Origin: Daphnia pulex | Lineage: Eukaryota > Arthropoda > Branchiopoda > Diplostraca > Daphniidae | NCBI RefSeq assembly: GCF_021134715.1 | Contig: NC_060019.1 | Location: forward strand, 868,001-932,000 | Reading direction: 5' to 3' | DNA length: 64,000 nt | In this document: in pieces, positions 7,613 through 54,351 of the stretch | Layout of the letters: each line of letters starts with the position of its first letter | How positions within the stretch are numbered: position 1 is the first letter of the stretch | The notes under the pieces: model-generated | Databases searched by the model: none | Told to the model about the DNA's origin: nothing | Seen by the model: the letters and a program-made list of their open reading frames with translations, nothing else | Position numbers and translations under genes: made by a program

Positions 7613-8783
7613 ATGAATAATCAAACGGGAATTAATGTTTTGAGTGCTGCACTCTTCGACATTTCGCACAAGTATGTCACTCATCAAGATCCATCGGTGG
7701 CCATCGACGTCAAAGATCTCCACAAACTACTGATGAAAGGATGCTACAAGCTGGACACTAATTATGAATACATTATTCCTGAAAGTGGTAATGACATTGT
7801 GTGAACGTAAACATAGCTTAAATGAGTAAATAATTCTAAACCTATTGTATTTTTTTAAAGCTGTTTATAGAGGTATAGTAACACTACCTGGCACCATTAT
7901 AATCTATGTGGAAATTTCACCCAAAAAAATCAAAGAATATCCTATCAACCAATCGGCAACCATCAAGGACTTGAAAGATATTATATGCAATGGAGAAGGC
8001 ATCTCACCACGTCTACAAAGATTGTTGTTTGTCAACCAGGAATTGAAAGACAAGAAATCTTTGAAATATTACAACATCAAAGAACGCGATACTGTTCAAC
8101 TTAAATTGAAAATAATCGACGGATTAAACTTACACAAGGAACTGTTTGACGAGCCATACCATTACGATTTCACCAACATTTCTGATGAGAGAAACCAATT
8201 CTACAGCAGAGGGAGAATGGAATACCTCCGTCCATGCGGATGGCAACGCTACGCTTTAAATGTCAAAGGCAAGTACCCGGACGATATTTGGCTAGAAGGG
8301 AAATATCGCCGGTCTGACAAAAACTCGTCGGCCGAAGGAGAATGGCCAGTGTCCTACCACGGAACATCTTACCACAACGGACTCTCAATCGCAGAAGAAG
8401 GATTTAGATTGAGTAGATGCACGCGTTTCAAATATGGCTATGGTATCTACACGACACCTGATATCAAAGTCGCATACCGATTTGCTGATATTATACAGAT
8501 CGATGGGATAACCTATAGATTTGTCGTTCAAAGTCGTGTCAACCCCAAAAATGTGAAGATAGTCAGTAAAGCTGAAACTGGTGTGGGCGAGTATTGGATC
8601 TCATCCAATGAGGACGACGTTCGCCCTTATGGCTTTTGTATTCTAGAAATTTTTAGAAGAAACCTCAAATTATCTCTTCCCCCTGAAACTCCTCTCTCTG
8701 AAACTCCTCTTCCTGAAACATCCTTCTTCTTTTGGATGTTGTTATTTGCTGTAATAATGATATACTACTGCACATTGGAATGA
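7613..8783 (+). CDS. N-domain + divergent ubiquitin-like + PARP-like ART + C-terminal membrane anchor (copy 1)
   Basis: Exons 7613-7787 and 7861-8783 (phase 1, GT-AG), 365 aa. Residues 1-55 are the family N-terminal domain (NQTGINVLSAAL ... [17 protein letters not shown]). Residues ~70-145 form a ubiquitin-like fold (IIYVEISPKKIKEYPI ... LQRLLFVNQEL ... YYNIKERDTVQL) that has lost the LRGG end. The ART domain starts at [12 protein letters not shown] and has [47 protein letters not shown] and [22 protein letters not shown] and E match the PARP H-Y-E pattern. The last ~35 residues are Pro/Glu repeats (PETPLSETPLPET) followed by a hydrophobic segment FFFWMLLFAVIMIYYC, a likely tail anchor. AATAAA follows the stop. 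ADP-ribosyl transfer from NAD+ is inferred from motifs. Confidence 0.85.
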
Positions 8784-9909
8784 AAAATTAAATAAAGGAC
8801 CAAGATGAAATCAACAAAGATTTGTTTTTACAGCACGAGAGTATCTAATTTGGCGTTATGCACTACGGAATAAGACCGAATAATTAAATGTACGTTAAAA
8901 ACTCGAAATCCAAAGTTGGGAGTATGAAACCAGGAAGCAAAATATTTTTTTTTTAAACAATACATGCTCAGATCATAGTTTGAAACCGTCTATACATTTA
9001 ATACATTAATAGTAAAAGGGGGCTTCAAAATAGAAAAGGAATAATTAAGGGAAAATCATAACAGTCAAAATTTTAATGAGTAAAGAAAATATTATTACGT
9101 AGACACCAATATAAATGGGGGAATTAAAGAAAAAATTAAAAATGAGTCGGTAAGGTCAGTTAAAAATGATTCTTCATCTTTTCCTTCGTCGTTTTAAAGG
9201 ATTGCATGCAAACTAAAATTTACGCCTAATTAGAATAATAAACTGGAAATGAAGGTATTTTTTAAAAAGGAAACTTAAATTGCTTGAAACGAAGACCTCA
9301 TCCGCGGAAATCTGCGACAACAGTTTGTCCTATTCATGTGAAGTTTGCAATGTTTAGCCTGACCATGGCCTGACGTTTGTTCTAAGAATTGGCGCATTTG
9401 TCTGAGGTCGTCAGATTGACGTTGCAATGCGATTGTTTTTCTATATTTTTTTACCCAAGCAAAATTCACCATTAATTTCAAATCTGGCAACCGAAAGTGA
9501 CAAATTTAAAAGCGTTGGCCATTTATTAATTGTCATCAACTGTTTGGTATTAAAAAATATTTACTGTTAAACTTTACATAAAAAATATACTGGTATGAAA
9601 TTGATTAAACTTAAAAAATGCAATTAGCCTAGCATTCTTTAAGTGATTAATAACGCAGACAAGCTAAGAGTAAGAGTTAACTAAACCTAAAAGTGTTCAC
9701 TTCAAATTTAATATCAATTTCATTGAAAGCTAATCAAAAGCGATACAGAAGCTACATCGTGTTATAAGAAACTCAAGAAGAATTATATTTTTTAACCTTC
9801 ATTAAACAAAGTTTTCTTTACAAGAAATTCTTGATAAATAAAATCTATTTACATATTTTCTTTTTAAAACAGGAGAACATCAATCAACGGAGGAAGAAAA
9901 TACTTTAAA
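8784..9909. other. Spacer with one small minus-strand open frame
   Basis: AT-rich, with the polyadenylation signal of copy 1 near 8790. A minus-strand frame 9472-9275 (65 codons, KKYRKTIALQRQSDDLRQM onward) is compositionally protein-like but isolated and unrecognised. A 15-nt stretch near 9477-9491 resembles part of the IMP4 promoter. Otherwise I see nothing. Confidence 0.35.
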
Positions 9910-10478
9910 ATGGTGATTATAAATCTCGACAAAATTATCAAGAACAATTCATGGTTTGAAAGTCTAATCAAAGCAATCAACAAAGTGATCGATTTGGAAA
10001 AGGAAAATAATCCTACACGTGGAACAAAAAACTATTTGGCAGAACAAGTTTTTGAACTTGTGTTTTACATTGGAAAAAAAGGAATTGAATTCACGGAAGA
10101 AGAGCGTAAAGTTATTGGGCCTTTGATAAAAGAAATAATTCGGTTTCTTGGCATTTATATGTTGCGTATTGGGTGGATATTCGTTCCTGATTTCGATGGC
10201 TACAAATCTACAATCTACTTCAACGTTCAGGAATCCAATTCCTTCTGGATAATTTTAAAGAATTTCCCGTAACTAATGAAGAACTATTCGGGGATTCTCT
10301 AAAAGAACTGCAAGACTCTGAAAGATTGGAGATATTCGACGAGAAACTGACCTACTACAAGGACAATCAAGGATTCATGGATTTTGAATCTCTTCCTTTG
10401 CCACTGGGTGATCCAGTGAGGCCGGAAGCTGGTGGTCATAATCTCGAAAGACCCTATCATAATAACTTCACAAGATAA
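9910..10478 (+). pseudogene. Degraded ART-family relative with an unusual N-region
   Basis: A frame from 9910 (MVIINLDKIIKNNSWFESLI) runs to a stop at 10272. The next 200 nt are open in another frame (FKEFPVTNEELFGDSLKEL ... FMDFESLPLPLGDP) and end with LERPYHNNFTR then a stop, which matches the first residues of the ART domain ([11 protein letters not shown]) in intact copies. A frameshift or tiny intron near 10222-10240 would join the frames, but the ART itself is missing. A splice-acceptor-like TTTTTAAAACAG precedes at about 9870 and the frame is open from there, so this may be a former internal exon. The ~180-residue N-region is not the usual family N-domain and I do not recognise it. Confidence 0.5.
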
Positions 10479-10974
10479 ATGGCTGGAAATAGCGTAAACT
10501 ACGAAGAAGAAAAGTCAACTACAAATTTTGCGAATACTTGAGTCATGTAAGCCAAAAATTCCCTTCCAGTTTTACCTAAGAAATAAACATCGATACATCA
10601 GTTACTTCACTATATTCTTGAATAATGAGAGTAGTGTTTTATGAAACGCACTAAGAATAAAAGATGCCGAGTCTACTGCTGATTGGCTGATTCTCCGAGC
10701 ATTTTTTCGTCGTTACATGGGCTTTTAGACTAGACTAGACTTTTACAACTGGATGAGAAGCAAAACGAATGGGAAAGAAATGCTATCACCAGTACATCAA
10801 TTTTAAAATTGCCTTTAGAAATTATGCATGAGTTCTCTAGTCTAGGAAACATAGCAGAAATGGATGCAAGAATAGCACAACGAAGGAAACGGCACACGCA
10901 TACGAGTTCGAGTATATGTCCAAACGTTGTACGCGAACTATTCGTTATAGTTCTAAGGCTTGCTCGTTTTTGTG
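10479..10974. other. Spacer
   Basis: AT-rich spacer after the degraded gene. The open stretch beginning 10809 has no domain or splice support. Confidence 0.3.
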
Positions 10975-12281: not shown

Positions 12282-12818
12282 ATGGATCTTAAATCTGGAT
12301 TAGCCTTTTTAAATTGTGTGCTCAGCAAGAGCAGTTCGTTGGACAAACCATACCATTATAATTACACCGACATTTCTGATAACGGGATCAAGTTCTCTAG
12401 GGGAGGAAAGGAATACATCCGCCCGTGCGGATGGAATCGTTTTGCGTTGAAAGTCAAAGGCAAGTACCCGGACGATATTTGGCTAGAAGGGAAAACACCT
12501 CGGGCTGACCAATTCTCTTCCGCCGAAGGAGAATGGCCAGTGTCCTACTCCTACCATAAGGATCTACCCATTACAGAAGAAGGAAAGCGTTTCAACTATG
12601 GCAACGGAATTTACTCGACACCTGACATCGAAGTCGCATGCAAATATGCCGTGGCGATCCCGATGAACGGAAAAACATGCAAGGTCATCATGCAAAATCG
12701 TGTCAACCCTAAAAATGTGAAGATAATAAGCAAAGCTGAAACTGGTGTGGGCGAGTATTGGATCTCACCCAGTGACGACGATGTTCGCGCTTATGGCATC
12801 TGCATTAAAGAATGTTGA
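12282..12818 (+). CDS. Short intronless ART copy lacking the HGT motif (copy 2)
   Basis: Single exon, 178 aa. The N-terminal domain is cut to about 18 residues (MDLKSGLAFLNCVLSKSS) joined directly to the ART start ([13 protein letters not shown]); there is no ubiquitin domain. [46 protein letters not shown] and [20 protein letters not shown] are kept. Where intact copies have [20 protein letters not shown], this one has SYSYHKDLPITEEGK, so the NAD-binding His-Gly-Thr is deleted and the helix after it is shortened by several residues. It is probably catalytically inactive yet has a clean open frame, so it could act as a non-enzymatic paralogue or be a young pseudogene. Confidence 0.75.
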   Translation: MDLKSGLAFLNCVLSKSSSLDKPYHYNYTDISDNGIKFSRGGKEYIRPCGWNRFALKVKGKYPDDIWLEGKTPRADQFSSAEGEWPVSYSYHKDLPITEEGKRFNYGNGIYSTPDIEVACKYAVAIPMNGKTCKVIMQNRVNPKNVKIISKAETGVGEYWISPSDDDVRAYGICIKEC

Positions 12819-13547: not shown

Positions 13548-14580
13548 ATGGATAATCAAACCGGATTGACAATTTTGAGTTCGGTACTCGACAAAATGTC
13601 GTACCCGAACCAAATATTGTCACCTGGTCAAGACGATTCGAAAGGCATAGACGTCGGAGTTCTACACAGATTGCTGATGAAAGGATGCTACATAAAAGGC
13701 CGGGATAATACAAAAGATGGTAAGCTTAGCCAGTACAAACAACGTGAAATTAATTACAGTCCATAAATTTCTTATTGGAACCTTCGATCTAGAAGATGGA
13801 GGGACATCGCAAACGATACATGTCTTTATCAAAAACTTGACAGGGAAAACTATTCAGTTCTCCATTAGTCCCTTAGCCAAAGTTGAGGATTTAAAGGACA
13901 TGATCCGTTCAAAGGAAGGCATTCCAATAGATCAGCAACGCTTGATTTTTGATGGTAATCAGCTGGAAGATGGAAAAACTTTGGAACATCACAACATTAA
14001 ACATGAAAGCACGCTACACCTTGTACTGAGATTGAGGGGAGGAGGAGAACTTATTGTTTTACGACCTTCATTGTTGGACACACCGTACCATTACGATTTC
14101 ACCAACATTTCTGATAACGGAGTCAAGTTCTGTAGAGGAGGATCGATCTACATCCGCCCGTGCGGATGGCAACGATACGCATTAAAAGTCAAAGGCAAGT
14201 TCCCGGACGATATTTGGCTGCAAGGTAAAACATCTCGGGCTGACCAATACTCTTCCGCTGAAGACGAATGGCCAGTGTCCTACCACGGAACTTCTTACCA
14301 CAACGGTCTCTCAATCGCAGAGGAAGGATATAAATTGAGTAAAGGAGAGCGTTTCTTGTACGGCAAAGGTATTTACTCGACCCCCGATATCGGGGTGGCA
14401 TCCCTATATGCTGTTGAAGCCAACGTAGACGGAAAAATTTATAAATTCGTCGTGCAAAATCGTGTCAACCCTCGAAATTTAAAAAAAGTTGGTAAAGATG
14501 TAACGAAAATAGGCGAATATTGGATCTCGCCTAATGACGAAGATATTCGCCAATATGGCTTCTGCATCAAAGAATGTTGA
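13548..14580 (+). CDS. N-domain + ubiquitin (LRLRGG) + PARP-like ART fusion (copy 3)
   Basis: Exons 13548-13719 and 13793-14580 (phase 1; a second in-frame acceptor at 13759 would give a 39-nt intron and is less likely), 319 aa. Residues 1-57: N-domain ([20 protein letters not shown] ... [12 protein letters not shown]). Residues 66-141: ubiquitin, with [31 protein letters not shown] and [10 protein letters not shown]; the Leu8, Ile44 and Val70 patch positions are kept, but Asn stands at 48 and His at 63. Residues ~150-319: ART with [55 protein letters not shown], and [20 protein letters not shown], giving a complete H-Y-E set. It ends CIKEC with no membrane signal. Predicted mono-ADP-ribosyltransferase fused to ubiquitin; the reaction is inferred. 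Confidence 0.88.
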
Positions 14581-16056: not shown

Positions 16057-16566
16057 ATGGATAGTGAAACAGGACTGGCCATTTTAAGTGCCGTATTAAA
16101 AGGCATGTCGTGCCCAAACCGAATACTCACAAGTGAAGAGGATAAATCGACTGGAATTGACGTCAAGGATCTGCACAAGATTTTGTTGAAAGGATGCTAT
16201 TACCATCTGGAACGGGAAAACAAACCGGACACTCCTAGTGCAGGTAACAGAAATAATTTAGTATCCTGTAAAAAGTGAAATAATAAATGAATGAATGAAT
16301 TAATTATTAGCTACTGACAATCGAAATGAACTCGGCAAGGAAAACTCCAACGTTGATGATACGAAAAAGTCTGTATAAACATTAACGTTTTCGTAGAAAC
16401 TAAAGACGGGAAATCATTTCCCTCAACTATTAAATCCACAACGGCGATTGCTGAATTAAAAGACATCATATTATCAATAGAAGATATTCCACCAGCAGAC
16501 ACTCGACGCTTGATTTTGGCTATCCATTTAGGCGATGATAAAAATTTAGAAAACCAAAGCGCTTGA
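16057..16566 (+). pseudogene. Short copy S1: N-domain exon plus frameshifted ubiquitin-like exon
   Basis: Exon 1, 16057-16243, encodes the intact N-domain (MDSETGLAILSAVLKGMSCP ... DVKDLHKILLKGCYYH). After a phase-1 donor, exon 2 begins near 16311 and encodes ATDNRNELGKENSNVDD then a stop caused by a 2-nt insertion at the TCTGTA-TA-AAC position. Beyond it a ubiquitin-like frame remains (NVFVETKDGKSFPSTI ... ADTRRLILAIHLGDD) and stops before the last ~25 ubiquitin residues. No ART follows. The remaining 84-residue product could still be made. Confidence 0.65.
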
Positions 16567-18700: not shown

Positions 18701-19078
18701 ATAAAACTGACGCAGAGCAAAATGAATGGCATTCGAGATTTTTAATAAGATCTTTTAGTTTTATTTCATTTGCCCGGGATTTGGTTGAACTGACTGAGGA
18801 TTCTTTGTGCACCCGAAATTTTACTCACGTATATTATACTCGTATTCGCCAGGAATATTGAATTACATTTCTGTTTAGTCTTCCACTCGATCCTGGACTT
18901 TAACCGCGCACACGAATAATAAATAAATAAGTTTTTATCGAAAACCCAACGCAGTCTGTTTTATTCTGTGTGAATACGCAGTATAATTCGTGAGTTCCTA
19001 TTCAGTTTGAAACATAAGTTAATACTGGTTCCCGGCATCACCTAAAAATTAATCCTTTATCACAAGTTTTGAACGGAA
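18701..19078. other. Upstream region of the C1q gene
   Basis: No clear TATA box. ATTCGTGAGTTCCTATTCAGTTTGAAAC near 18986-19013 contains an initiator-like TCAGTT. Confidence 0.3.
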
Positions 19079-22000
19079 ATGGCTACATCAACATCGATAA
19101 GGTGCATCCTTGTCCTATTTTTGACTACCGTTTGCTGTCAGCGTCAATCAGACAACCCCGGCGGTTCCGGCGCTTCTTCTTCTTGGGCCAAGCTGCAAAT
19201 CTCACCCGACACGTTAAGTTCCATGGAGTGCGGCAACTTTCTCGTTGAAATTTACGAACACGCCAACAATCACAAGCTAACCACAACAGCCGGCGAGAAA
19301 AAGTATTTCTATTCACCCATTGGGATGTTGGACCACAAAAGTGCCGTGAGTAGATTGAACCGAGTGACGAAACAATCAGAGATGAGATTCCGCATTGAAA
19401 TGTGGAACGACAAAGTCCAGAATGAAGTGGTCAAACATTTGAATGAAATCGTCGGCCACGAAATCAAATCCAATAAAGTGAGAGTCATTCCCTTGGAGAA
19501 GGTCCTTCTGGCCAGCGAAATACCCACGGACACTTATTCGCTATCTCCAGTGTGGAAGAATTACGACAAGGGCAAAACAATTTGGTTTTCTCTTTCGTGT
19601 GACGAGCAGAAAGTCTGCGACGAACTGGCCAATGAAATGCGATCGGATCCCACTCAATTCGAGCATTTCAAACTCCTCTACAGTTTGTCATCGCAGACGT
19701 CGCAAACCAAACAGGCGGCCATCAATATCGACAGTGTCACTTCCGGTCGAATGGTCTCGACTCTTTTACAGAAATTTGGAGACAAAAAAGAAATTTTTCT
19801 GACGGCCAACGACGAGAAGAAAATGTTGGCGGAAACGGCCACCAACATCCGAATGGACACATTTGACGACTCCGAGGTTGAGTCTCCCGAAACGGAACCG
19901 CAAATTGTAACTATTTTAAAGGATTTGCTCGTCAGCACATCCAGCATGACTATCAAAGGGCAAAGTGACAAAATGTGGGACTCTGTTTTTTGGAATGAAG
20001 ACCATTACCGGCCGGACATGACGACGAAAACTTTAAATGAAATCCTCAACCAACTGGACACGGAAACTCAAAAGAAATTGGCGGGAATGTTTCAAAAAGC
20101 CGAGATGAGGCAATCAGAAACCACAGAAAAATTAATTTCGAGTAATCAAGACGCGCAGAAAAGACGAGAGGAACAAACTCGTCGCGAAAATCAATCGAAA
20201 GATGCGAATGGAAATGAAATGAAAAGATCGCAAGCAACTGATCAAGAACAATCAATAAGTCGCAATCAAACTCGCGATGGCAAATCGACCACCAGCAGAG
20301 ATGACATCACCGTAGATGATGACGTTCAAATTGCGACCCAAAATAGTCACACGCATAAGATGGACAAAGAAAACGTGAAGTGGGAAATCGCCAAGAAGAG
20401 TTCGAATGAACTGAATAGAAATTTAGAGAATAAAGAAAAAATCCAACACAATTACGACTCAAACAGTTGGGCTGACGTGGACAGAATCAGTTCAACAATT
20501 TCAGGGAAAATGGCAAACGATTTCGATAGCTCCCGGAGAGTCGAAATTGTAAAGGAAGACGTTGGAAAATTATTACAAGAAAGTAGAAATCACGTTCAAT
20601 GGGACGGAGAGAAATTCGTGCCCAAACCCATGCAACTGAGCAGAATCAATTTGGGTAAATTTCGTGACTCTCGGTCGTTTCAGGATCGCCACGTCCGTGT
20701 CCGTTACACGACCGCTGAACTGTCGGCGCCGATAAAAATTGCGGAACACGCAGAATTGACCGTCACCGACGAATGGAACAATTTAAAGGAGGAACTCAAA
20801 GGTTTTTAAAATTCATTTTTAAAATTTATAAAATTTAAATTGAATTATTGCAATTAAATTTCAGCCACTACTGGCCTCTTCAGCACAACTGAGAACAACT
20901 TGGTGAAAACGAATGCAGAAATGAGAAATCTGAAGAGCGACTTAACCAACACGCGAATTGATTTAACTAATGAATTAAAAGGTTTTTAAAATTATTGAAT
21001 GAATTAACGAAAACTGATTTTTTAAAAATGTGATTGCACAGGGACAAAAGAGGAGTTGGAGAAAACGAAAATCAACTTGGAGGAAACCAAGGCCAATGTC
21101 CATAATCTATCTATAAAGTTAAATGGTATTTAATTAAATTTAATGGAAATTAAATTTAAATAATAAAAAAAAAATCTTACAAAATTGTGCATGCTTTTTA
21201 TTAGGCCTACACATAGAGGCCAAGTAGGAGTTGGTGAAAATAAGAACAGATTTCATCAAAACCGTCGATGATTTATCTACCAAATTAAATGGTATTAAGC
21301 CTACAAATCTACTATAATAAAAATAAAATACTAGATAAAATCCGAATGCAAAAACCTTTTCAATAAATTTAGCGACTAGTAAAGAATCGGCAGAAACGAA
21401 AATCACGACCGAAAATTTGTCAGCTGAACTCAAAAGTAAACCTCACGTCGAATCAAATTTTTTAGAAAATAATTTGTTTTAACTTAATTCTATTTTCTTA
21501 AGATTGTGTAGCGAATTCAGATCGATTAGGTCGAGAATTAAAATTTGCTCAAGAAAATTTGAAAAAAGATTTAAAAGGTAAAAATAATTTTGATTTATTA
21601 TTTGAAATAGATTTGATTTTAATTGAATGGAGGTTGTTGTTTGTTGTTCAGCAACTTCAACTGACTTGGAAACCACGAAAACAAATTTGGTCTCAGCAAG
21701 AACAGAATTGAACAGGACAAAGTCCGCCGTTGCGGATTTGGCAATCAAATTAAATGGTAAAATAAATAAAAATACCTTCTCAATTCTCTTAATAACTGAA
21801 AAACAAACGAAATAAGATTAATTTGATTTTCTGATTATTGTGCAGTATATTTGCAACGATTCGGTTACGAACTAAAAACTGCCGAAGACAATCTGAGAAA
21901 AGAATTTGGAGGTATACAATTAATTTTCTTTTAATTTACTAACTTATTTTTAATACGATCACACGAATTGATTCAGCAACCTCAAACGATTTGGAAACTG

Positions 22001-22847
22001 CGACAACAAATTTGGCCTCAACGAGAACGGAATTGAGCAACATCGTTGCGGATTTGACGACCAAATTAAATGGTAAAATTACGAATGAATAATGTGGCAC
22101 GATTAAAAGAATCTAAATTTCTTTTTTTTGAAAGCCCGAACCAGTGAAATAGTTGACATTGGTAAAATGCCAACCTCTTGTTGGGATCTGCAGCAAATGG
22201 GACATAAGCTGAGCGGATTCTTTTTGGTCAAAGGATCAAAAAAGATGGAAACGCTTTACTGTGACTTTTATCCTAATCAAAATGGTACGACATGTTTCTC
22301 TTTGATTTGTTAGTGATTAGTGACTGTCAAATTCTTTTTTCTTTTTACAGACAAACAGAAATGGATCGGATACGCCGACGTCAAATCAGCCTCCGTCCAT
22401 TTCTACGTCCAGCGAAATTCTGAATTAAAAACAAATTCTGAATTAAAAACAATTCCGATTCCGTTCGAGTTGGTGCGGGTAAACGAGGGAAATGCCATGA
22501 ATTTGGCATCGGGGAAATTCACGGCACCGCGACCGGGAATTTATTTCTTCTCATTCACGGGACTGGCGCGTCTCGAATCTTCCCAATTACCTGTTGGGTT
22601 TGCTTCTTATCTCTATTTGAACGGGAGTCTAATCGGGTCGAGTTACGTTCGCGAGGCGAGGAGCCCCGTTGATCAATTTAGTCCGTTGACCGTCCAGTCG
22701 ACGGTGACTTTGAAACAAGGCGATCAAGTCTGGGTGGGGATTGGTTTTAGCAGTAGTTCATCCTCGTATTTGTACGACAACAGTGATTACCACAACACCC
22801 ATTTCACGGGTTTCATGTTGGAGGAGGAAATTGTGGCGTCCCTTTGA
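19079..22847 (+). CDS. Secreted coiled-coil / C1q-domain protein (Daphnia-type family)
   Basis: Exons: 19079-20801, 20865-20981, 21042-21125, [21205-21291], 21373-21435, 21503-21577, 21652-21756, 21846-21911, 21977-22072, 22135-22284, 22351-22847; every intron is phase 1. Without the bracketed exon the product is 991 aa. It starts with a signal peptide (MATSTSIRCILVLFLTTVCC), then a ~330-residue region I know only as Daphnia-lineage, then a charged Gln/Asn/Arg-rich linker. The small exons encode coiled-coil cassettes (for example TKEELEKTKINLEETKANVH; ATSTDLETTKTNLVSARTEL). Exon 10 holds a fibrinogen-like start (SCWDLQQMGHKLSGFFLVKG ... METLYCDF). The last exon is a C1q/TNF-like domain (KWIGYADVKSASVHFYVQ; FTAPRPGIYFFSFTGLA; FTGFMLEEE). 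Likely a secreted multimeric binding protein. The bracketed exon carries an in-frame TAG. Confidence 0.85.
21205..21291 (+). other. Symmetrical cassette exon with an in-frame TAG
   Basis: Flanked by proper AG and GT sites and phase 1-1 like its neighbours. It encodes GLHIEAK-stop-ELVKIRTDFIKTVDDLSTKLN; the TAG is at 21225-21227. Including it would end the protein before the C1q domain, and skipping it keeps the frame. Confidence 0.7.
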
Positions 22848-24866: not shown

Positions 24867-25368
24867 ATGGATAATAAAACAGGACTGGCCATTTTAAGCG
24901 CCGTATTAAATGACATGCCATACCCAAATAAAATACTCACAACTGAAGAGGATAAATCGACTGGAATTGACGTCAAGGATCTGCACAAGATTTTGTTGAA
25001 AGGATGTTATTACCATCCGGAACGGGAAAACAAACCGGATACTCCTGCAAATGGTAATAAAACAGATATCGAAAATTGTACAGGTAAATCTATTGTCTTG
25101 TAAAAAAAAATTGCAATAAGAAACCAACTCATTTTTTTTTTCATTTGAAAGAAACTGCCAAAGAACTCGGTAACGAAAACGTCGAACTTGAAGATACAAG
25201 AAAGTCTATTAACATGAAAACCACTTCCATTAACTCTAAAACCCACGACGACGATCGCTGAATTAAAAGAAATTATATTATCGACCAAAGAAATTCCGCT
25301 AAACAGTCAACGCTTGATTTTCGCCATAAATTTACACAAAGATAGAAATGTCAATGACCAGAGCGCTT
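24867..25368 (+). pseudogene. Short copy S2: N-domain exon with decayed ubiquitin-like exon
   Basis: Exon 1, 24867-25053 (an alternative donor at about 25084), encodes an intact N-domain (MDNKTGLAILSAVLNDMPYP ... DVKDLHKILLKGCYYHPERE). The second exon (from ~25151) has lost the first ubiquitin strand by deletion and stops in the annotated frame. In another frame LTLKPTTTIAELKEIIL and NSQRLIFAINLHKD are still visible before a stop at QSA. No ART follows. Confidence 0.62.
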
Positions 25369-26088: not shown

Positions 26089-26911
26089 ATGAATAATCAA
26101 ATCGGATTGACCATTTTGAGTTCGGTACTCGACAATATGTCGTACCAAACCAAAATATTGTCACCCGGTCAAGACGACTCGAATGGCATAGACGTCAGAG
26201 AACTCCACAAATTGTTGATGAAAGGATGCTACTTAACAGGCCAGGATGATGACATAACCAACTTTCTGGGTAATGCAATTAAGCTAATACATATCATTTA
26301 CTTAACGAAAAAAAAAAGTAAAATAATTTGTTATTCGGATAGATAATAATCTTGGTACAGGAGCAATACCAAGTGGAGGAGAAATTTTAATACCACCTTC
26401 ATTGTTGGACGAACCATATAATTACGATTTCACGAACATTTCTGATAAAGGAGTAGAGTTTTTTAGAGGAGGGTCGATTTATACACGCCCCTGCGGATGG
26501 CAACGCTACGCATTAAAAGTCAAAGGCAAGTATCCGGACGACATTTGGCTAGAAGGGAAAACACCTCGGGTTGACCAATACTCGTCTGCTGAAGACGAAT
26601 GGGCAGTGTCCTACCACGGAACATCTTACCACAACGGTCTCTCAATCGCAGAGGAAGGATATAAATTGAGTAAAGGAGAGCGTTTCTTGTACGGCAAAGG
26701 TATTTACTCGACCCCCGATATCGGGGTGGCATCCCTATATGCTGCTGAAGCCAACGTAGATGGAAAAACCTATAAAGTTGTCATGCAAAATCGAGTCAAC
26801 CCAAAAACTGTCAAAAAAATTGCCATAACTGTAACTGGTGTGGGGGAATATTGGATCTCGCCCGCCGACGAAGATATTCTCCCATATGGCTTCTGCGTTA
26901 AAGAAATTTGA
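26089..26911 (+). CDS. N-domain + PARP-like ART without ubiquitin (copy 4)
   Basis: Exons 26089-26269 and 26343-26911 (phase 1; a second in-frame acceptor at 26360 also fits), 249 aa. N-domain: [20 protein letters not shown] ... [17 protein letters not shown]. The ubiquitin exon is absent. [91 protein letters not shown], ending CVKEI. The stretch from the codons after YHGTS to LYA is identical at DNA level to copy 3 for roughly 120 bp, a gene-conversion signature. Motif-complete, so probably active as an ADP-ribosyltransferase (inference). Confidence 0.85.
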
Positions 26912-31795: not shown

Positions 31796-31821
31796 TACAA
31801 GACGACACTTCTTACCGTCAG
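31796..31821 (+). promoter_or_regulatory. TACAAG (TATA variant) and initiator of copy 5
   Basis: TACAAG at 31796 replaces the TATAAG of other copies; TCAG has its A at 31820. A 5' UTR donor AACCA|GTACGT-like site follows near 31860. Confidence 0.5.
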
Positions 31822-31933
31822 GATGCAGAGAAACGAGCGTGCGATTTACAATCAACCAGTACGTTTTAACTTAGCCTTACTTTCCAATTCAACGATACTT
31901 GAATACTTCTTTAAATAGTTTCTTCAGTCCAAC

Positions 31934-36315: not shown

Positions 36316-37750
36316 TTTTATATTTGTAACTAAGCGGGAAGCAGTCCCGAGGTAATTGGTTATTTAAAAAAAATTTACGTTCGGCAGCTGCAAAGCTGAG
36401 TCACATGACGTTTGCTACATAGCGAGTACCTATAAAATCTCAGGGTACTTTTTAAATTTGATGATTTCAGGCTTAATTAAAAGCAATTGTATACTTGTGC
36501 CAATCATGCATCTGATTTGCTTGTTTGCTAAAAAGTTTACGGGACCATTAGCATATGCATTTAGTGCGTAGACGCCATAATACGGCAGTGCTAAAATAAA
36601 ATAGCCCATAAAAGAGTTGTAAACTTTGCACAGGAAAAAATAAGATAATATAAGACGATAGCATTTTCAGGCAAGGTTGACATTGTACAGTGAAATAACT
36701 AAGTGAGTTATAAATAATGCCTGTTTAAGTTAACAAATTCTACAAAACGAATGACTAATGACTAGGAAACGAGAAGAGAAAAAATAAAACACTCCGCACA
36801 ATTATTTAAGCGAAAAAAGCATCGACGAATTGCGATCAACGTCAAACATTAAAGCCATCTCAAAAAAATTTTCATAAAACCTGTGGCTGTTGGAAATTGG
36901 AAATCCCAATAAGAAAAACGGCCCAAAGATCCTTAAAATAAAGATAAGGTAAACTTGGACTATAAAAAACGGTAAGATAAAAATGAGGATAAGAAATGCA
37001 ATTAAGAAAATCGTCATTCGAAAATGCGCACGTCGTATAATTCAAGAAACAATTCTAGCCTTTCCCCCAGCAAAGCAAAACCTTTCGCAAGAACGACTAA
37101 TGGAGAAGTAAAATGTTCTATTACAAAATGGCGAGTTGATTAGAAAATCCATACTGCCAATAACAAGTACTCAACCTATTACTTCAACAGTAACCAGCAT
37201 CAGAAGATTTATAATTAAGAATTGCTCAACACCTCAACAGGTTATAAATAAAGGCCAATAAAGGCACAGTGGTCTTTAAACTCGCATTGTTGGGAAATAC
37301 AAACATTTTCTGGCTAGAACCTTTAAGATCGCTTCATACTCGAATCGAGGTTAAAATATACGATGGATTTGATTAAGTTTTACATTTAATATTATTAATC
37401 CGTAACCGTTTCAACTAAGGCAACCTGGGTATCTACTAGACTCTTTGATATCCAAGCGCAATCAAATATGCTGTGGCATCATGGGTAACTGGGAGGGGAG
37501 AAAACGAAAGTCAAAATAAAAATCGAATAAAGTGTAGGTGATTAAAAGATCCTACACCCAGTAAAAAAAAAAATTATTAATGCCTGTAATGCCTTATATA
37601 ATCAAACCGGATAATAAACTGCGAAGTATAGGACGCGTCAAGCACACTTACCAGCTGCTTGTCTGCGTTCAGGTAAAGAGTGTCACCCTGTTGTTGGAAT
37701 TTAATTCGACAAAGGTTTTAAACCTGCTTTTCAGAGTGACCGCGGCCGAG
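36316..37750. other. Spacer and proximal promoter block of copy 6
   Basis: 36316-36560 is shared with 31010-31260. The middle (36600-37600) is AT-rich without genes. 37640-37750 is the CAGCTGCTTGTCTGCGTTCA block. Confidence 0.4.
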
Positions 37751-37776
37751 TACAAGGCGACACCTCTTACCGTCAG
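37751..37776 (+). promoter_or_regulatory. TACAAG and initiator of copy 6
   Basis: TACAAG at 37751-37756 and TCAG with A at 37775, same spacing as copies 5 and 9; followed by CAACAAGTACGTTTT, a likely 5' UTR splice donor. Confidence 0.5.
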
Positions 37777-37919
37777 GACGCAGAGAAGCGAACGCGCAAT
37801 CTACAATCAACAAGTACGTTTTGATTCAGCCTCACTTTCCTATCCTTGTACTGATATAGTTCTTTGAATAGGTTCTTCCACAGTTCCACCTTTAGAAGAA
37901 ACAATACAAACAGTCCAAA

Positions 37920-38708
37920 ATGGATAATCAAATCGGGTTGTCCATTTTAAGTGCGGTACTCGATAGTATGTCGTACCCAAACCAAATAGTGTCAGGCGGC
38001 GGTCAAAATATATCAGACGCCACCGATGTCTGCGATCTCCACAGATATTTAATGGGAGGAGGCTATCAAACAAACCAGGATGCTTTGAGACGCGGTGCAG
38101 CTTCGTTACAATACGGAGGATTATTATCAGCAAGATCACCACCATTGAGCATAGCTTTACCATCTTCATTGCTGGATGAGCAATTTCACAAAGATTTCAC
38201 GGACACTTCTGATAACGGCGTAGAGTTTTACAGAGGTGGATCCAACTACATCCGCCCCTGCGGATGGCAACGCTACGCATTGAAAGTCAAAGGCAAGTAC
38301 CCGGACGACATTTGGCTAAAAGGGAAATATCGCCGGGCTGACGAATACTCGTCAGCCGAAGGAGAATGGCCAGTGTCCTACCACGGAACATCTTTGAACA
38401 ACGGTCTCTCAATCGCAGAGGAGGGATTTAAATTGAGTCAAGGAACGCGTTTCTTGTACGGCAAAGGTATTTACTCGACCCCCGATATCGGGGTGGCATC
38501 CCTATATGCTATGACAGTAAACGTAGATGGTAAAAGCTATAAATTCGTCTTGCAAAATCGTGTAAACCCAACAAATTTGAAAAAAGTTTGCAAAGCTGTA
38601 ACTGGTGTGGGGGAATATTGGATTTCACCCAATGATGACGATATTCGCCCTTACGGCTTTTGTGTTCGAGAAGTTGAAAGTCACTCCCCATTTTGTGTTT
38701 TACAGTAA
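37920..38708 (+). CDS. Intronless N-domain + ART with CaaX box CVLQ (copy 6)
   Basis: Single exon, 262 aa. N-domain: MDNQIGLSILSAVLDSMSYP, NQIVSGGGQNISDATDVCDL, HRYLMGGGYQ. Linker of ~35 residues rich in Ala, Gly, Ser and Leu. [93 protein letters not shown]. It ends VESHSPF-Cys-Val-Leu-Gln-stop, a CaaX box of the farnesylated type. Complete H-Y-E motif set. The part around GVASLYA matches copies 3 and 4 at DNA level while its neighbours match copy 5, suggesting patchwork conversion. Confidence 0.87.
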   Translation: MDNQIGLSILSAVLDSMSYPNQIVSGGGQNISDATDVCDLHRYLMGGGYQTNQDALRRGAASLQYGGLLSARSPPLSIALPSSLLDEQFHKDFTDTSDNGVEFYRGGSNYIRPCGWQRYALKVKGKYPDDIWLKGKYRRADEYSSAEGEWPVSYHGTSLNNGLSIAEEGFKLSQGTRFLYGKGIYSTPDIGVASLYAMTVNVDGKSYKFVLQNRVNPTNLKKVCKAVTGVGEYWISPNDDDIRPYGFCVREVESHSPFCVLQ

Positions 38709-41332: not shown

Positions 41333-41790
41333 ATGGATAATGAAACAGGACTGGCCATTTTAAGTGCCGTATTAAAAGGCATGTCGTGCCCAAACCGAAT
41401 ACTCACAAGTGAAGAAGATAATTCGACTGGAATTGGCGTCAAGGATCTGCACAAGATTTTGTTGAAAGGATGCTATTACGATCCGGAACGGGAAAACAAA
41501 ACGGATACTCCTAGTGCAGGTAACAGAAATAATTTAGTATCCTGTAAAAAGTCAAATAATAAATAAATATGATTACTACAACTGCTAGCGACAGAGAGCA
41601 AATCAAATACTAAACATAACCTAATTTATTGTATTTTTCTGCAGTTGTATTCAGTTGAATTGTATTATTCTTCCCTTGACTATTAAACCCACTACGACAA
41701 TCATTGAATTCAAAAGGATTATATTACCATCAAAAGAAATTCCGCCACAAACCCAACGCTTGATTTTGGCTATTCATTTAGACGATGATT
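41333..41790 (+). pseudogene. Short copy S7: N-domain exon intact, ubiquitin-like exon broken
   Basis: Exon 1 encodes MDNETGLAILSAVLKGMSCP ... GVKDLHKILLKGCYYDPERE up to a phase-1 donor at about 41520. The next exon (from ~41645) starts VVFS then stops, because the first ubiquitin strand has been replaced (TTGTATTCAGTTGAATTG). Later pieces (TIKPTTTI, TQRLILAIHLDDD) remain. Confidence 0.62.
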
Positions 41791-43935: not shown

Positions 43936-43995
43936 TACGTATTTAACATACAAATTCATCTTTTTTTAAAAAGGGACCATGCAAATAGATATAAA

Positions 43996-45072
43996 ATGGA
44001 TAATGAAATCGGATTGGCCATTTTGAGTTCCGTACTCCACAAATTGTCGTACTCAAACAAAATTTTACCACTTAGTCAAGACGACTCGAATGGGATTGAC
44101 GTCGGAGTTCTACACAAACTGTTGATGAAAGGATGCTACACAAAAGACCAGGATGATACAGAAACCAACGTCAACGGTAAGGCAATTCAACTAATACAAA
44201 ACAACGATTTAAGAAAAAATCCATTATTTCTTATTCAAACAGTCCGTCCTGGTCAAGAGCAAAGCCCGGAAAACCTTGGCCTAGAAGAAGAAGGAATGAC
44301 GGAAACAATTGAAGTGTATGTGAAAACACTGAATGGGACAAAAATTTCGTGCCACATCAAACCCTCTGCTAAAATTGAGGAATTAAAGTACATGATCCGT
44401 TCAAAGGAAGACATCCCAGTAGACCAACAACATTTGATTTTTGCCGGTAGACAGCTGGAAGATATAAAAACTTTAGAAGACTACAACATTCAAAATGAGC
44501 GCACTGTGAACCTTGTACTGCGATTGAGAGGAGGAGCAATTATAAATTTATCACCGTCACTGTTGGACGAGCAATTTCATTATAATTACACCGACATTTC
44601 TGATAACGGAGTAGAGTTTTTTAGAGGAGGATCGATCTACATACGCCCGTGCGGATGGCAACGATACGCTTTAAAAGTCAAAGGAAAGTACCCGGACGAT
44701 ATTTGGCTAGAAGGGAAAACACCTCGGGCTGACCAATACTCTTCCGCTGAAAACGAATGGCCAGTGTCCTACCACGGAACTTCTTACCACAACGGACTTT
44801 CAATCGCTAGCGAAGGATTTAAATTGAGTAAAGGAACGCGTTTCTTGTACGGCAAAGGAATTTACTCGACTCCTGAAATAGAGGTGGCGGCCCAATATGC
44901 TGAGGAAGCAACGGTAAATGGAAAAATTTATAAAGTTGTCATGCAAAATCGTGTCAACCCCAAAAATTTAGAAAAAGTTCCCAAAGCTGAAACTGGTGTG
45001 GGCGAATATTGGATCTCGCCCAGTGACGAAGACATTCGCCCATATGGTTTTTGTATTCGAGAAATTAACTGA
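43996..45072 (+). CDS. N-domain + ubiquitin (LRLRGG) + PARP-like ART fusion (copy 7)
   Basis: Open as one frame (358 aa), but GTAAGG at 44177 and AAACAG at 44242 delimit a 66-nt in-frame intron matching the intron position of its paralogues; splicing gives 336 aa. N-domain: [20 protein letters not shown] ... [15 protein letters not shown]. Ubiquitin: [48 protein letters not shown]; position 48 is Arg, 63 is Asn and 42 is His. [96 protein letters not shown], ending CIREIN. The ART is almost identical at DNA level to that of copy 9 over ~400 bp although copy 9 has a different N-part and tail. AATAAA at about 45080. Confidence 0.88.
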
Positions 45073-46446: not shown

Positions 46447-47078
46447 CTATTGGCTAAGACGCTTAAAGTAATGAAGGGCAACGAATAAATCTGTTACAGC
46501 ATTTAAATCGCAGCTGCTGGTGCTTGAATCGCTGGAGCTTGAATCGCTGGAGCTTGAATCGCTGGAGCTTGAATCGCTGGAGCTTGAATCGCTGGAGCTT
46601 GAATCACTGGAGCTTGAATCACTGGAGCTTGAATCGCTGGAGCTTGAATCACTGGAGCTGGAACTGAAGGGATTAACGATGGAATTCAAATATCTGTCTT
46701 CATCTATTGACTCAATTATGTGCTCATCATACTCTTGATCAGATTTTACATTGTGGATGATTGCAGTAAAAGGTCCTTTACATAATGGACATTCTGCTCT
46801 TTCCTAAGATAAACAATTCGTGAAAATTAGATCTAGATGCAGCTTTAGTAAAAATGAATTATAATTACTTCAGACCACTTGAGCAAACACTCAAAACAGA
46901 ACGTGTGCAAGCAATTGTTGGCAAAAGATTTGTTCGTAATTATCTGAAGGCAAATCACACATGTTGATGGTTCATTGTCTTGTTCTTCAAAGCTCAGCCG
47001 GTGTCTTTTTCTACAACTAGACTCTTCAGGAGACTGTCCTTTCCTTTTGAAATTGTCAACTTTCGAAGTTGAAGCCAT
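46447..47078 (-). CDS. Truncated topors paralogue A: RING plus (SSSSD)n tail
   Basis: Exons 47078-46869 and 46803-46447 (GT-AG at the same place as topors intron 1), 188 aa. RING: CVICLQIITNKSFANNCLHT, FCFECLLKWSE, then RAECPLCKGPFTAIIHNVKS, DQEYDEH, closely matching topors exons 1-2 (CSICLG..NKSFTNNCLHEF; PECPLCKQPFTSIIHNVRSN). Everything after residue ~112 of the parent is replaced by a tail of about nine SSSSD repeats and a unique end (SCDLNAVTDLFVALHYFK). The topors-specific domain and SUMO-interaction motifs are gone. The RING should still bind an E2. The acidic Ser repeats look like casein-kinase-2 substrates (inference). Confidence 0.82.
46520..46665. repeat. 15-bp minisatellite encoding SSSSD
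   Basis: CTTGAATCGCTGGAG repeated about nine times with single-base changes (GAATCACTGG variants). It is open on both strands, so the plus-strand LELES frame is a by-product. Confidence 0.9.
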
Positions 47079-47744: not shown

Positions 47745-47880
47745 CTTATGTAGGATGAAACAGGTGTGGGTGAATATTGGATTTCGCCCATTGATGAAGA
47801 CATTCGCCCTTACGAATTTTGTGTTCGAGAAATTGACAGACAGACAGCTCCGGCTCACCCCCCCTCTAAAGTGAGATTGA
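47745..47880 (+). pseudogene. ART 3' fragment of the CaaX type
   Basis: GGTGTGGGTGAATATTGG ... CATTCGCCCTTACGAATTTT encodes [20 protein letters not shown] then VREIDRQ and a Pro/Ala stretch like copy 5. There is no upstream ART. Confidence 0.75.
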
Positions 47881-50019: not shown

Positions 50020-50280
50020 ATGGATAATGAAACAGGACTGGCCATTTTGAGTGCCGTATTAAATGGCATGTCGTACCCACACCGAATACTCACAACTGAA
50101 GACGATAACTCGACTGGAATTGATGTCAAAGATCTGCACAAGATTTTGCTGACAGGATGCTATTACCCTCCGAAACTACAAAATATAACAGACATTGCAA
50201 CAAGTGATAAAGAAGTAGATAAAACGACCAATACAACTGCAGTAGGTAACGAAAATAATCTAGTGCCCAGTAACAAGTGA
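50020..50280 (+). pseudogene. Short copy S8: N-domain exon, ubiquitin exon lost
   Basis: Encodes MDNETGLAILSAVLNGMSYP ... DVKDLHKILLTGCYYPPKLQ and a Thr/Asp/Lys-rich extension to a donor (GTAACG) near 50247. The next ~150 nt contain only faint ubiquitin-like traces, and a C9 homopolymer lies near 50466. No ART follows. Confidence 0.55.
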
Positions 50281-51251: not shown

Positions 51252-52412
51252 ATGGATAATCAAACCGGGTTGGCCTCTTTCTGAGTTCGGTACTCGACAA
51301 AATGTCGTACCCGAACCAAATATTGTCACCTGGTCAAGACAACTCGAAAGGCATAGAAGTCGGAGTTCTACACAAATTGCTAATGAAAGGGTGTTACATA
51401 ACAGGCCAGGATGACAACCAAACCAACATTCAGGGTAATTAAGCTAATACACAAAATTTACATAACGACGAAAAAAAGGTTTGTTATTCAATAATTTGTT
51501 ATTCTGACAGGCAAGGATAATACAAAAGGAACTACTTCCAATGGTAAGTTTAGCCAGCACTAGCCTACAAATAACGTGACACTAATTTCAATCCATTAAT
51601 TTCTTATTGGAACCTTCGATCTAGATAATGTAGGGAAATCGCAAACGATAAATATCTTTATCAAAACCTTGACAGGGAAAATTATTCAATATTTCATTAG
51701 TACCTCAGCCAAAGTTGAGGATTTAAAGGACATGATCCGTTCAAAGGAAGGCATTCCAGTAGACCAACAACGCTTGATTTATGCCAGTAGACTGCTGGAA
51801 GATATAAAAACTTTGGAATATTACAGGATTGGTAACGAAAGCACTATACACATTGTACTGAGAATGAGAGGAGGCACAAGTTTTTTCGATTTACCACCTT
51901 CATTGTTGGATGAGCCATTTCACTACAATTTCACCAAGATTTCTGATAGAGGAGTCAAGTTCTGTAGAGGAGGATTAATCTACATCCGCCCGTGCGGATG
52001 GCAACGCTACGCAATCAAAGTCAAAGGCAAGTTCCCGGACGATATTTGGCTGCAAGGTAAAACATCTCGGGCTGACCAATACTCTTCCGCTGAAGACGAA
52101 TGGCCAGTGTCCTACCACGGAACATCTTTGAACAACGGTCTCTCAATCGCAGAGGAAGGATTTAAATTGAGTAAAGGAACGCGTTTCTTGCACGGCAAAG
52201 GAATTTACTCGACCCCCGATATTGAGGTGGCGGCCCATTACGCTGTAAAAGTAAAGGTGAATGGAAAGACCTATAAAGTTGTCATGCAAAATCGTGTCAA
52301 CCCCAAAAATTTGAAAAAAGTTGGCAAAGATGTGACGAAAGTAGGCGAATATTGGATCTCGCCCACCAACGAAGACATTCGCCCTTACGGCTTCTGCGTA
52401 AAAGAAATTTGA
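51252..52412 (+). CDS. Ubiquitin (LRMRGG) + PARP-like ART fusion with frameshifted N-domain exon (copy 8)
   Basis: Exon 1 (51252-51434) begins MDNQTGLA but a 2-nt insertion (GGCCTCTTTCTGAG against GGCCATTTTGAG) gives a stop at codon 11; the rest of the N-domain is readable in the shifted frame. A mini-exon, 51511-51543, encodes [10 protein letters not shown]. The last exon, 51625-52412, is open and the same length as in copy 3: ubiquitin ([41 protein letters not shown]; Arg at 48, Asn at 63), then ART ([90 protein letters not shown]). Either a young pseudogene or expressed from a later start. Confidence 0.72.
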
Positions 52413-53350
52413 TTTTTGTTTGCATCTTCAAACATTGAAGCCAATAAAAATTCTTTAAACAGAACCAATGAACGTGCAATAATTTTATTTGGGCTGCAGT
52501 GATAACGAATGGCCGTTTAATGGCTCACCTTTCGGGTTTTTCCAACTTGACATTTGGAATTCTGTCGATAAACAAAAACAAAATGATTTTTTTTTCGTCT
52601 ATAGCAAACAAGACGAGTTTTCGTTGTGCATATCGCCATTTCTTCGTGGTTCTATTTTCAATCAAAGGCGTAAAAAGAGCTCGTTAAAATATATAAAAGT
52701 AGCTGGACCAGAGGTAACGCTATACCTAAAACTTAAATGTCCTCTTGAAAGACATTTACTCCACCCCCGATATCGAGGAGGCATCCAAATATGCTACAAC
52801 AAAAAGGTGAATGGAATGACCTATATAGTTGCCATGCAAAATCGTGTCAACACCCAAAATTAAGTTAAGAGATGGCAAAGCTAAGACTGAAGAATCGACG
52901 AATAGCTATTGTCTTCGGTGGGTCGAACAAGATGACATCACATTTAATAGAAACGTCATGTTGCGCAACAAGAAAGGATTTCTATCACAAGATCTAAAGT
53001 CGACTTGCAAGACTTATGTCTATTCGAAAAATTACAAAAATTTAGTTTTAGACAATAAAATCAGCTGCCTGTTTTCAATGGCTTTGTTATATTGCGTCAC
53101 GATTAAGCAGGAAACATGTTCGTGTCACCACCTCAACCAAACAAATCTCAACCACGTTTTACCGGAAATCGCAATGTGAGTTATCAGCCTTAAAGTCAAA
53201 CTGGATATGGATAACGAAATACGAAGTATATAATGCGTCAAGCACAGTTACCCGCTGCTTGTCTGCGTTCAGCTAAGGAGTATCGCCCTGCTATGGGAAT
53301 TTATTTCGACGAAGCTTTTAAACCTGCTTTTCAGAGTGACCGCGGCCGAG
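52413..53350. other. Spacer with an ART fragment and promoter block of copy 9
   Basis: 52750-52862 is an ART piece (TTTACTCCACCCCCGATATCG ... ATGCAAAATCGTGTCAACACC). The overlapping open stretches have no other support. 53230-53350 is the CAGTTACCCGCTGCTTGTCT proximal block. Confidence 0.45.
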
Positions 53351-53376
53351 TACAAGACGACACTTCTTACCGTCAG
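53351..53376 (+). promoter_or_regulatory. TACAAG and initiator of copy 9
   Basis: TACAAG at 53351-53356 and TCAG with A at 53375, spacing as in copies 5 and 6; donor CAAGTACGTTTT at about 53411 and acceptor AAAATAG near 53473 suggest a 5' UTR intron. Confidence 0.5.
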
Positions 53377-53514
53377 GACGCAGAGAAGCGAACGCGCAAT
53401 CTACAATAAACAAGTACGTTTTGATTCAGACTCACTTTCCTATCCTTGTACTAAAATGGTTCTTTTAAAAATAGGTTCTTCCACCTTTAGAAGAAACAAT
53501 ACAAACAGTCCAAA

Positions 53515-54351
53515 ATGGATAATCAAACCGGTTTGTCAATTTTGAGTGCGGTACTCGACAAAATGTCGTACTCAAACCAAATATCTGGACAAAACAAATC
53601 AAACGCAACTGACGTCCGGGATCTCCATAAATATTTAATGGGGGGATGTAACAAAAGAGACAAGAGTGCTTTAGACTTCTTACACAGCCTATCTCTCACA
53701 CTTGGTCTACCACATTTAAGTGTAACAGCTGGAGTTGCAGCGTCACCTGCTGGAGGATCATCATCGTCTAGCATAGATTTGACACCTTCATTGCTGGATG
53801 AGCAATTTCATTACGATTTCACAAACACTTCTGATAACGGGGTAGAGTTTTTTAGAGGAGGGTCGATCTACATACGCCCATGCGGATGGCAACGATACGC
53901 TTTAAAAGTCAAAGGAAAGTACCCGGACGATATTTGGCTAGAAGGGAAAACACCTCGGGCTGACCAATACTCTTCCGCTGAAGACGAATGGCCAGTGTCC
54001 TACCACGGAACTTCTTACCACAACGGACTTTCAATCGCTAGCGAAGGATTTAAATTGAGTAAAGGAACGCGTTTCAAGCACGGCAAAGGAATTTACTCGA
54101 CTCCTGAAATAGAGGTGGCGGCCCAATATGCTGAGGAAGCAACGGTAAATGGAAAAATTTATAAAGTTGTCATGCAAAATCGTGTCAACCCCAAAAATGT
54201 AGAAAAAGTTCCCAAAGCTGAAACTGGTGTGGGTGAATATTGGATTTCACCCACTGATGACGACATTCGCCCTTACGGATTTTGTGTTCGAGAAGTTGAC
54301 AGTGACTCCTCTAAATTCGTTTTCCTCCCTAATGTTTGTATTTTACAGTAA
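53515..54351 (+). CDS. Intronless N-domain + ART with CaaX box CILQ (copy 9)
   Basis: Single exon, 278 aa. N-domain: MDNQTGLSILSAVLDKMSYS, NQISGQNKSNATDVRDLHKY, LMGGCNK. Linker of ~55 residues (LHSLSLTLGLPHLSV, then Ala/Gly/Ser). [96 protein letters not shown]. The tail VDSDSSKFVFLPNV ends Cys-Ile-Leu-Gln-stop, a farnesyl-type CaaX box. The ART DNA is nearly identical to copy 7 except FKHGKG in place of FLYGKG, whereas the N-part and tail belong to the copy 5/6 group: conversion between subfamilies. Confidence 0.88.
   Translation: MDNQTGLSILSAVLDKMSYSNQISGQNKSNATDVRDLHKYLMGGCNKRDKSALDFLHSLSLTLGLPHLSVTAGVAASPAGGSSSSSIDLTPSLLDEQFHYDFTNTSDNGVEFFRGGSIYIRPCGWQRYALKVKGKYPDDIWLEGKTPRADQYSSAEDEWPVSYHGTSYHNGLSIASEGFKLSKGTRFKHGKGIYSTPEIEVAAQYAEEATVNGKIYKVVMQNRVNPKNVEKVPKAETGVGEYWISPTDDDIRPYGFCVREVDSDSSKFVFLPNVCILQ

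Follow-up and report, generated by a model that had tools for sequence, protein, structure and literature searches.

A Daphnia pulex gene array placing ubiquitin between a short N-terminal module and a PARP-like ADP-ribosyltransferase domain

A 64,000-nucleotide stretch of the Daphnia pulex genome, C3:868001-932000 (the window, within which all coordinates below are counted), carries an array of nine gene copies whose products are supported, by fold and motifs, as members of the PARP-like (HY-[EDQ]) ADP-ribosyltransferase (ART) family, HY-[EDQ] being a clade name used in PMC9503650. The array is real and functional-looking, and belongs to an apparently uncharacterised but widespread family in which ubiquitin (Ub) may stand between a short N-terminal module (N-module) and the ART domain. 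With a probability of roughly 0.5, the Ub-bearing products are NAD+-dependent ART polyproteins cut at Gly76 of ubiquitin, and the Ub-less paralogues are anchored to membranes. The new elements are the concentration of the terminal Gly-Gly (GG) at the Ub-ART junction, a conservation of the ubiquitin recognition patch that tracks GG, two relatives in which a HINT domain follows immediately on a Ub GG, and the CaaX or hydrophobic ends of particular copies.

Six-frame mapping of the whole array with family hidden Markov models (HMMs) recovered nine ART exons, at 8133, 12330, 14062, 26393, 32168, 38160, 44551, 51894 and 53782 (E 8.6e-75 to 5.1e-94), together with a set of exons for the N-module, three full ubiquitins and a number of degenerate ubiquitin-like (Ubl) stretches, all on the + strand. 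An earlier note on this DNA, made from the sequence alone, had counted the same nine ART copies and had placed Ub or Ubl domains in copies 1, 3, 7 and 8; the Pfam ubiquitin profile is indeed significant in the open reading frames (ORFs) at 7830, 13696, 43849 and 51600 (E 3.8e-13 to 1.2e-23). Three of the nine copies (3, 7 and 8) have a ubiquitin ending in GG, copy 1 has a degenerate one and five have none, so that RLRGG or a close variant occupies the junction in three of the four Ub-bearing copies. The N-module, of about 45 amino acids, is found in eight of the nine, a wider distribution than had been stated. It shares a single ORF with the ART domain in copies 5, 6, 7 and 9, and for copies 1, 3, 4 and 8 a splice scan offers an in-frame join of the N exon to the main ORF, among alternative joins. 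The array copies comprise the following features:

7613-7787, +: copy 1 N-module exon (HMM E 6.2e-16; in-frame join over a candidate 73-nt intron, 7788-7860)
7920-8114, +: copy 1 ubiquitin-like domain, degenerate, lacking RLRGG and ending LKIIDG (Pfam ubiquitin E 3.8e-13)
8133-8648, +: copy 1 ART domain (HMM E 1.4e-85)
8721-8780, +: copy 1 hydrophobic C-terminal end SFFFWMLLFAVIMIYYCTLE, possibly a tail anchor (sequence)
12282-12815, +: copy 2, start of an N-module fused directly to an ART domain lacking HGT of YHGT (HMM, motif alignment)
13548-13719, +: copy 3 N-module exon (HMM E 2.7e-33; candidate intron 13720-13792)
13816-14043, +: copy 3 ubiquitin, terminal LRLRGG (Pfam, HMM)
14062-14577, +: copy 3 ART domain (HMM E 1.8e-91)
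26089-26269, +: copy 4 N-module exon (HMM; candidate intron 26270-26342, other joins possible)
26393-26908, +: copy 4 ART domain, without Ub (HMM E 2.8e-91)
31937-32113, +: copy 5 N-module, sharing its ORF with the ART domain (HMM)
32168-32689, +: copy 5 ART domain, without Ub (HMM; inside LOC124190841)
32735-32746, +: copy 5 C-terminal CaaX box CVLL (sequence)
37920-38093, +: copy 6 N-module (HMM)
38160-38675, +: copy 6 ART domain, modelled together with the N-module (HMM, structure model)
38694-38705, +: copy 6 C-terminal CaaX box CVLQ (sequence)
43996-44166, +: copy 7 N-module (HMM, structure model)
44308-44535, +: copy 7 ubiquitin, terminal LRLRGG
44551-45066, +: copy 7 ART domain (HMM, structure model)
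51263-51424, +: copy 8 N-module exon, in an ORF without a start Met before the module (HMM)
51648-51875, +: copy 8 ubiquitin, terminal LRMRGG (Pfam, HMM)
51894-52409, +: copy 8 ART domain (HMM E 3.1e-92)
53515-53688, +: copy 9 N-module (HMM)
53782-54297, +: copy 9 ART domain, without Ub (HMM E 5.1e-94)
54337-54348, +: copy 9 C-terminal CaaX box CILQ (sequence)

The candidate introns of copies 1, 3 and 4 each measure 73 nt, other joins being possible. RefSeq model P0008 (319 aa) is identical to the spliced product of copy 3. Copies 6 and 9 are the same as the database entries P0003 and P0005, and copy 5, contained in P0001, has an ORF (31919-32746) that matches part of D. pulex LOC124190841 at 100% identity from end to end. 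At least two further full N-Ub-ART ORFs, both with LRLRGGG, lie elsewhere in the genome, at C3 ~547,800-548,840 (378 aa) and C12 ~222,430-223,400 (329 aa), and the counts from this genome search are lower bounds.

The assignment to the ARTs draws on motifs, predicted fold and selection. RPCGW and GEYWIS are present in all nine copies, as had been claimed, but YHGT is present in only eight; the copy at 12330 (copy 2) reads SY---SYH, lacks HGT together with a stretch further along, and is probably inactive. The Tyr of GIYSTP and the GEYW motif are found in 9/9 copies. Among 204 distinct homologues (the best 120 of 964 matches, 14 of 14, and the best 120 of 197), the catalytic H and Y are each kept in 202, and the third catalytic residue, assigned by motif order, is E in 163, D in 24 and Q in 3 (190/204). 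For structural modelling the Ub-less copy 6 was chosen, since the ubiquitin part had filled the first fold search; its N-ART model has a predicted template-modelling score (pTM) of 0.80, and 47 of the 50 matches in its Foldseek list are PARPs. These matches and the near-invariant H and Y bear out the ART reading of the earlier note. The Pfam PARP profile (PF00644) does not reach its gathering cut-off of 26.7 bits in the array, where the best copy scores 25.1-25.2 bits; at E <=0.01 it matches 35 of 58 family members, and the relative P0133 scores 49.6. The ratio of nonsynonymous to synonymous substitution rates (dN/dS) is below 1 in all 36 pairs of ART exons, with a median of 0.27, as purifying selection on the ART copies would produce; elsewhere it is below 1 in 71 of 78 N-module pairs and ranges from 0.41 to 0.76 among the three full ubiquitins. 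By motif and model, the array ARTs would transfer ADP-ribosyl groups from NAD+.

The placement of GG speaks for cleavage. At the Ub directly preceding the ART domain, GG occurs in 129 of 172 homologue junctions, compared with 3 of 11 other upstream Ubs, and two of those three belong to the HINT-bearing proteins P0134 and P0135. The GG rule is a loose text pattern that misread at least P0053 and P0072, so that the junction misses amount to up to 43/172, of which at least two are misreadings. In the multi-Ubl proteins P0158 and P0186, GG is carried only by the last Ubl, at the ART domain. Across 82 nearly full-length Ub domains (out of 94 Ub matches), G76 is conserved in 98%, G75 in 89%, R42 in 78%, K48 in 40% and K63 in 13%, and the tail residues R72, R74, G75 and G76 are conserved; these figures are descriptive, as related sequences are not independent.

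Conservation of the recognition patch follows the same division. The comparison covered 144 of 171 Ub-bearing proteins, those whose Ub domain is nearly complete. Where GG is kept (n=118), the patch and tail positions 8, 42, 44, 47, 68, 70, 72 and 74 are 79% identical to ubiquitin, versus 71% for chosen core positions; where GG is lost (n=26), the values are 46% and 59%, in a set that is more divergent overall. Surface lysines fall from 47% in GG-bearing to 26% in GG-less proteins. A patch conserved with GG and decayed without it is expected if deubiquitinases or E1 read the GG-bearing domains as ubiquitin and this recognition disappears along with GG. Additionally, in P0135 an LRLRGG is followed by a HINT domain (CFVAGT...VLVHN; first residue Cys, last residues His-Asn) and then by the ART domain, and in P0134 a first Ub (RLGGG) is followed by HINT, a second Ub ending LRLRGGG, and the ART domain. 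The cleaving A-type BIL domains carry a C-terminal His-Asn, according to PMC7765530. Among the Daphnia array ORFs scanned with Pfam, none showed a HINT domain. From these sequence patterns we infer that in at least some family members separation at the ubiquitin GG contributes to the mode of action, and the array ubiquitin looks made for removal by cleavage.

The C-termini suggest another means of placement for copies without a usable ubiquitin. Copies 5, 6 and 9 lack ubiquitin, keep the N-module and end in the CaaX boxes CVLL, CVLQ and CILQ, by which they may be prenylated; copy 1, whose ubiquitin has decayed, is the only array copy with a hydrophobic C-terminal segment. In a tally of 213 rows, which includes the window copies plus their identical database entries, 13 of the 38 Ub-less rows have a CaaX-like end, as do 13 of the 175 Ub-bearing ones; of these last, copy 1 and P0035 are of the hydrophobic-tail type. 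The association of CaaX with Ub loss thus appears as a tendency, not a rule. A similar stretch (LLVCVQ...RVTAAEYK) lies 5' of the three N-ART-CaaX copies, at 31679-31915, 37565-37867 and 53234-53545; part of it falls within RefSeq model P0001, and it may be coding or 5' untranslated region.

By sequence, the N-module matches nothing convincingly in Pfam or the PDB. It is predicted as helix-strand-helix, with a mean predicted local distance difference test score (pLDDT) of at least 90 over residues 1-40 of the copy 7 model, and of 91-94 over residues 1-20 and 70-77 over residues 21-40 of the copy 6 model. Among homologues with room for it, the module is kept in 20/24 Ub-less and 127/169 Ub-bearing proteins, and since it persists in so many Ub-less homologues it seems to belong more with the ART domain than with ubiquitin, and it may dock there. 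A search with a Cladonia query returned 14 proteins including the query, all with a Pfam ubiquitin match, so no other partner domain was found at that search reach. An identity with the PARP16 N-terminal domain is tempting by eye and has no sequence support, the best PDB match being MAPK9 (E 0.8), taken as chance. The N-module might correspond to a reduced PARP helical (regulatory) domain (HD). VIA alignments begin at residue 1 of the model, which they set against residue 17 of PARP16 and often against PARP1 residue 667, in the first HD helix; here too there is no sequence support.

In the preferred reading, the array would be a local expansion of a eukaryotic PARP-like ART family with ubiquitin between the N-module and the catalytic domain. 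The ART would move ADP-ribose from NAD+ onto protein targets, the N-module would pack against it, and the ubiquitin would serve as an intact handle for recognition and cleavage. A deubiquitinase, or the fused HINT in some relatives, would cut after Gly76 and part N-Ub from the ART, while copies 5, 6 and 9 would be placed by their CaaX box instead and copy 1 by its tail anchor. The amplification, the copy that looks inactive and the units lacking an ART hint at a role in conflict or stress response, for which prenylated ZAP-L/PARP13 is the nearest analogy; the comparison with defence draws solely on the ZAP-L CaaX precedent and the amplified, partly decayed array. In a further version, seen as a long shot, these would be ubiquitins carrying their own enzyme: the Gly76 cut, made by a deubiquitinase or a HINT domain, would free the C-terminus of N-Ub for conjugation, and the docked N-module would deliver the ART to the ubiquitin's target.

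The fusion might instead stay uncut, ubiquitin then being a permanent module for targeting or regulation, which would attract ubiquitin-binding proteins (proteasome, p97, ESCRT) or control the ART domain in cis. This is judged rather unlikely: the Ub fold is retained at the junctions that lack GG, the Ub-ART linker is short (median 8 residues) and the patch is conserved in GG-bearing members, all as such a module would have it, but P0158 and P0186 retain GG at the ART junction only, the four tail residues are conserved even though this tail has no fixed structure in ubiquitin on its own, and HINT sits directly behind Ub GG in two relatives. SidE-type ARTs modify ubiquitin on Arg42, and the array ART could likewise modify its own or general ubiquitin, the fused domain being a tethered substrate. 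The retention of R42 (84% where GG is kept, 35% where it is lost) fits this idea, which is judged very unlikely: R42 also lies within the ordinary recognition surface, and the catalytic motifs are kept in 8/9 array copies although 5/9 have no ubiquitin. Improbable, too, is a PARP-fold scaffold without catalysis, or a mere NAD+ hydrolase, in which ubiquitin would be a relic: one array copy has lost the catalytic histidine, and ZAP-L, whose PARP domain is inactive and which has a CaaX box, is functional, as described in PMC8568172, but H and Y are near-invariant over the 204 homologues and patch conservation in GG-bearing members is unlike a relic.

Several known systems resemble the array in part. 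It differs from PARP16/ARTD15 and other PARP (ARTD) domains in scoring below the Pfam PARP cut-off and in having ubiquitin between N-module and ART. PARP16 has a tail anchor, whereas only copy 1 of the array has a hydrophobic C-terminal segment, and no PARP16-type N-terminal domain was detected by sequence in the array proteins. As in Ub-eL40 and Ub-eS31, a ubiquitin ending RLRGG precedes another protein, and the profile matches come from the Ub part; in the array, however, the ubiquitin is not N-terminal, as it follows the N-module and a linker, and the passenger is an enzyme-like domain. BIL/HINT-ubiquitin polyproteins, such as the ciliate BUBL genes, have a counterpart in P0134 and P0135, where a His-Asn-ending HINT directly follows a Ub GG; in these two relatives an ART follows, and the scanned Daphnia ORFs have no HINT. 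In ZAP-L (PARP13), a farnesylated CaaX box ends the PARP-fold domain and is required for antiviral action (PMC8568172), which parallels copies 5, 6 and 9; ZAP differs in its zinc-finger RNA-binding domain and inactive PARP domain, and ZAP chain 4x52 gives only a weak profile match (E 0.21). Fusions of PARP with ubiquitin-system domains also occur in fungal clade 6A PARP-UBCc and Acanthamoeba clade 5 PARPs with ubiquitin-related domains; in the available portions of PMC2964712 and PMC4245714 the domains described are E2-like, UBA, U-box, UIM or unspecified ubiquitin-related, with no N-Ub-ART.

The earlier note had regarded the architecture as novel, and this part did not stand: homology searches find N-Ub-ART in fungi, rotifers, Hydra and algae as well. 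Confinement of either the N-module or the architecture to the window is thereby ruled out, homologues across kingdoms having both, and no paper on the N-Ub-ART architecture was found among the open-licence PMC papers listed. Among the 120 of 964 matches listed are Daphnia species, Glomeromycotina, ascomycetes (Cladonia, Arthrobotrys), Rotaria, Hydra and Dictyostelium; the second large set (120 of 197 listed) adds Ostreobium, more Glomeromycotina and long polyproteins. The N-module HMM matches 11 of 12 representatives of these groups, the exception being Dictyostelium, which implies either an early origin of the architecture or its transfer between kingdoms. The family looks patchy, in fungi, amoebae, algae and few animals, and uncharacterised. 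In a midpoint-rooted tree of 78 of the 204 proteins and the nine array copies (87 rows), the clade holding the Daphnia genes adjoins a five-row clade that includes WWE and HINT proteins, P0134 and P0135 among them (support 99/85), and Hydra and Rotaria cluster together, away from the Daphnia clade. A single animal clade is mildly rejected by the approximately unbiased test (p-AU 0.032), for a group of 36 rows defined after seeing the tree; this gives only a hint of horizontal transfer. For a viral or prokaryotic source, 22 viral-contig and 9 genome-contig pattern matches yielded no relatives by tblastn, with strict patterns that may miss distant ones, and in a viral fold library giant-virus and iridovirus PARPs match (best E 3.3e-4).

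Beyond the nine copies, the array holds six N-module units without ART, four of which then carry a short degenerate Ubl, along with fragments and ART relics:

16057-16554, +: N-module unit (16057-16206) with short degenerate Ubl, no ART (HMM)
24867-25352, +: N-module unit (24867-25022) with short degenerate Ubl, no ART (HMM)
28337-28797, +: N-module unit (28337-28480) with short degenerate Ubl, no ART (HMM)
30412-30567, +: N-module, no adjoining Ub or ART found (HMM)
34484-34916, +: broken N-module with Ubl fragment (HMM)
41333-41771, +: N-module unit (41333-41503) with short degenerate Ubl, no ART (HMM)
47757-47834, +: ART relic, C-terminal piece only (HMM E 1.2e-9)
50020-50166, +: N-module, no adjoining Ub or ART found (HMM)

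A second fragment maps by HMM to 36264, and ART relics map to 38961, 43501, 47757 and 52748. The N-modules of the six ART-less units have a pooled ratio of nonsynonymous to synonymous differences (pN/pS) of 0.40, and these units are possible short regulators or decoys.

Other features were also recorded in the window. Inside the array span lie a C1q-domain ORF (22317-22847, E 3.6e-16) and a 578-aa ORF (19073-20809) with a hydrophobic N-terminus and no Pfam match above cut-off. The ORFs at 46447-46803 and 56013-56336 have a CPLCxGPFTAIIH stretch in common, and segments at these places occur in duplicate inside the array. Near the array end, on the - strand, are a RING-finger fragment (56378-56683; PF00097, E 1.6e-6) and a non-LTR retrotransposon (56876-62192). 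One ORF of this element has Pfam matches to endonuclease, reverse transcriptase and RNase H; the ORF upstream of it has none but shows CCHC-like cysteine motifs in its sequence. A Brix-domain ORF (63620-63952, E 1.2e-11) is probably an exon of a ribosome-biogenesis gene, and the minus-strand ORF 3173-4033, which has no Pfam match, is one that we take by eye to resemble the TOPORS family.

Cross-talk between ubiquitin and ADP-ribose is known, and here both are brought together in a single gene across widely separated eukaryotes. If the Gly76 cut is true, the family would constitute a class of ubiquitin polyproteins whose passenger is an NAD+ enzyme. The paralogue series, with ubiquitin, with decayed ubiquitin and a tail anchor, or with a CaaX box, forms a natural experiment on the cellular placement of the enzyme, and since Daphnia is a genetic model, processing, prenylation and activity are directly testable.

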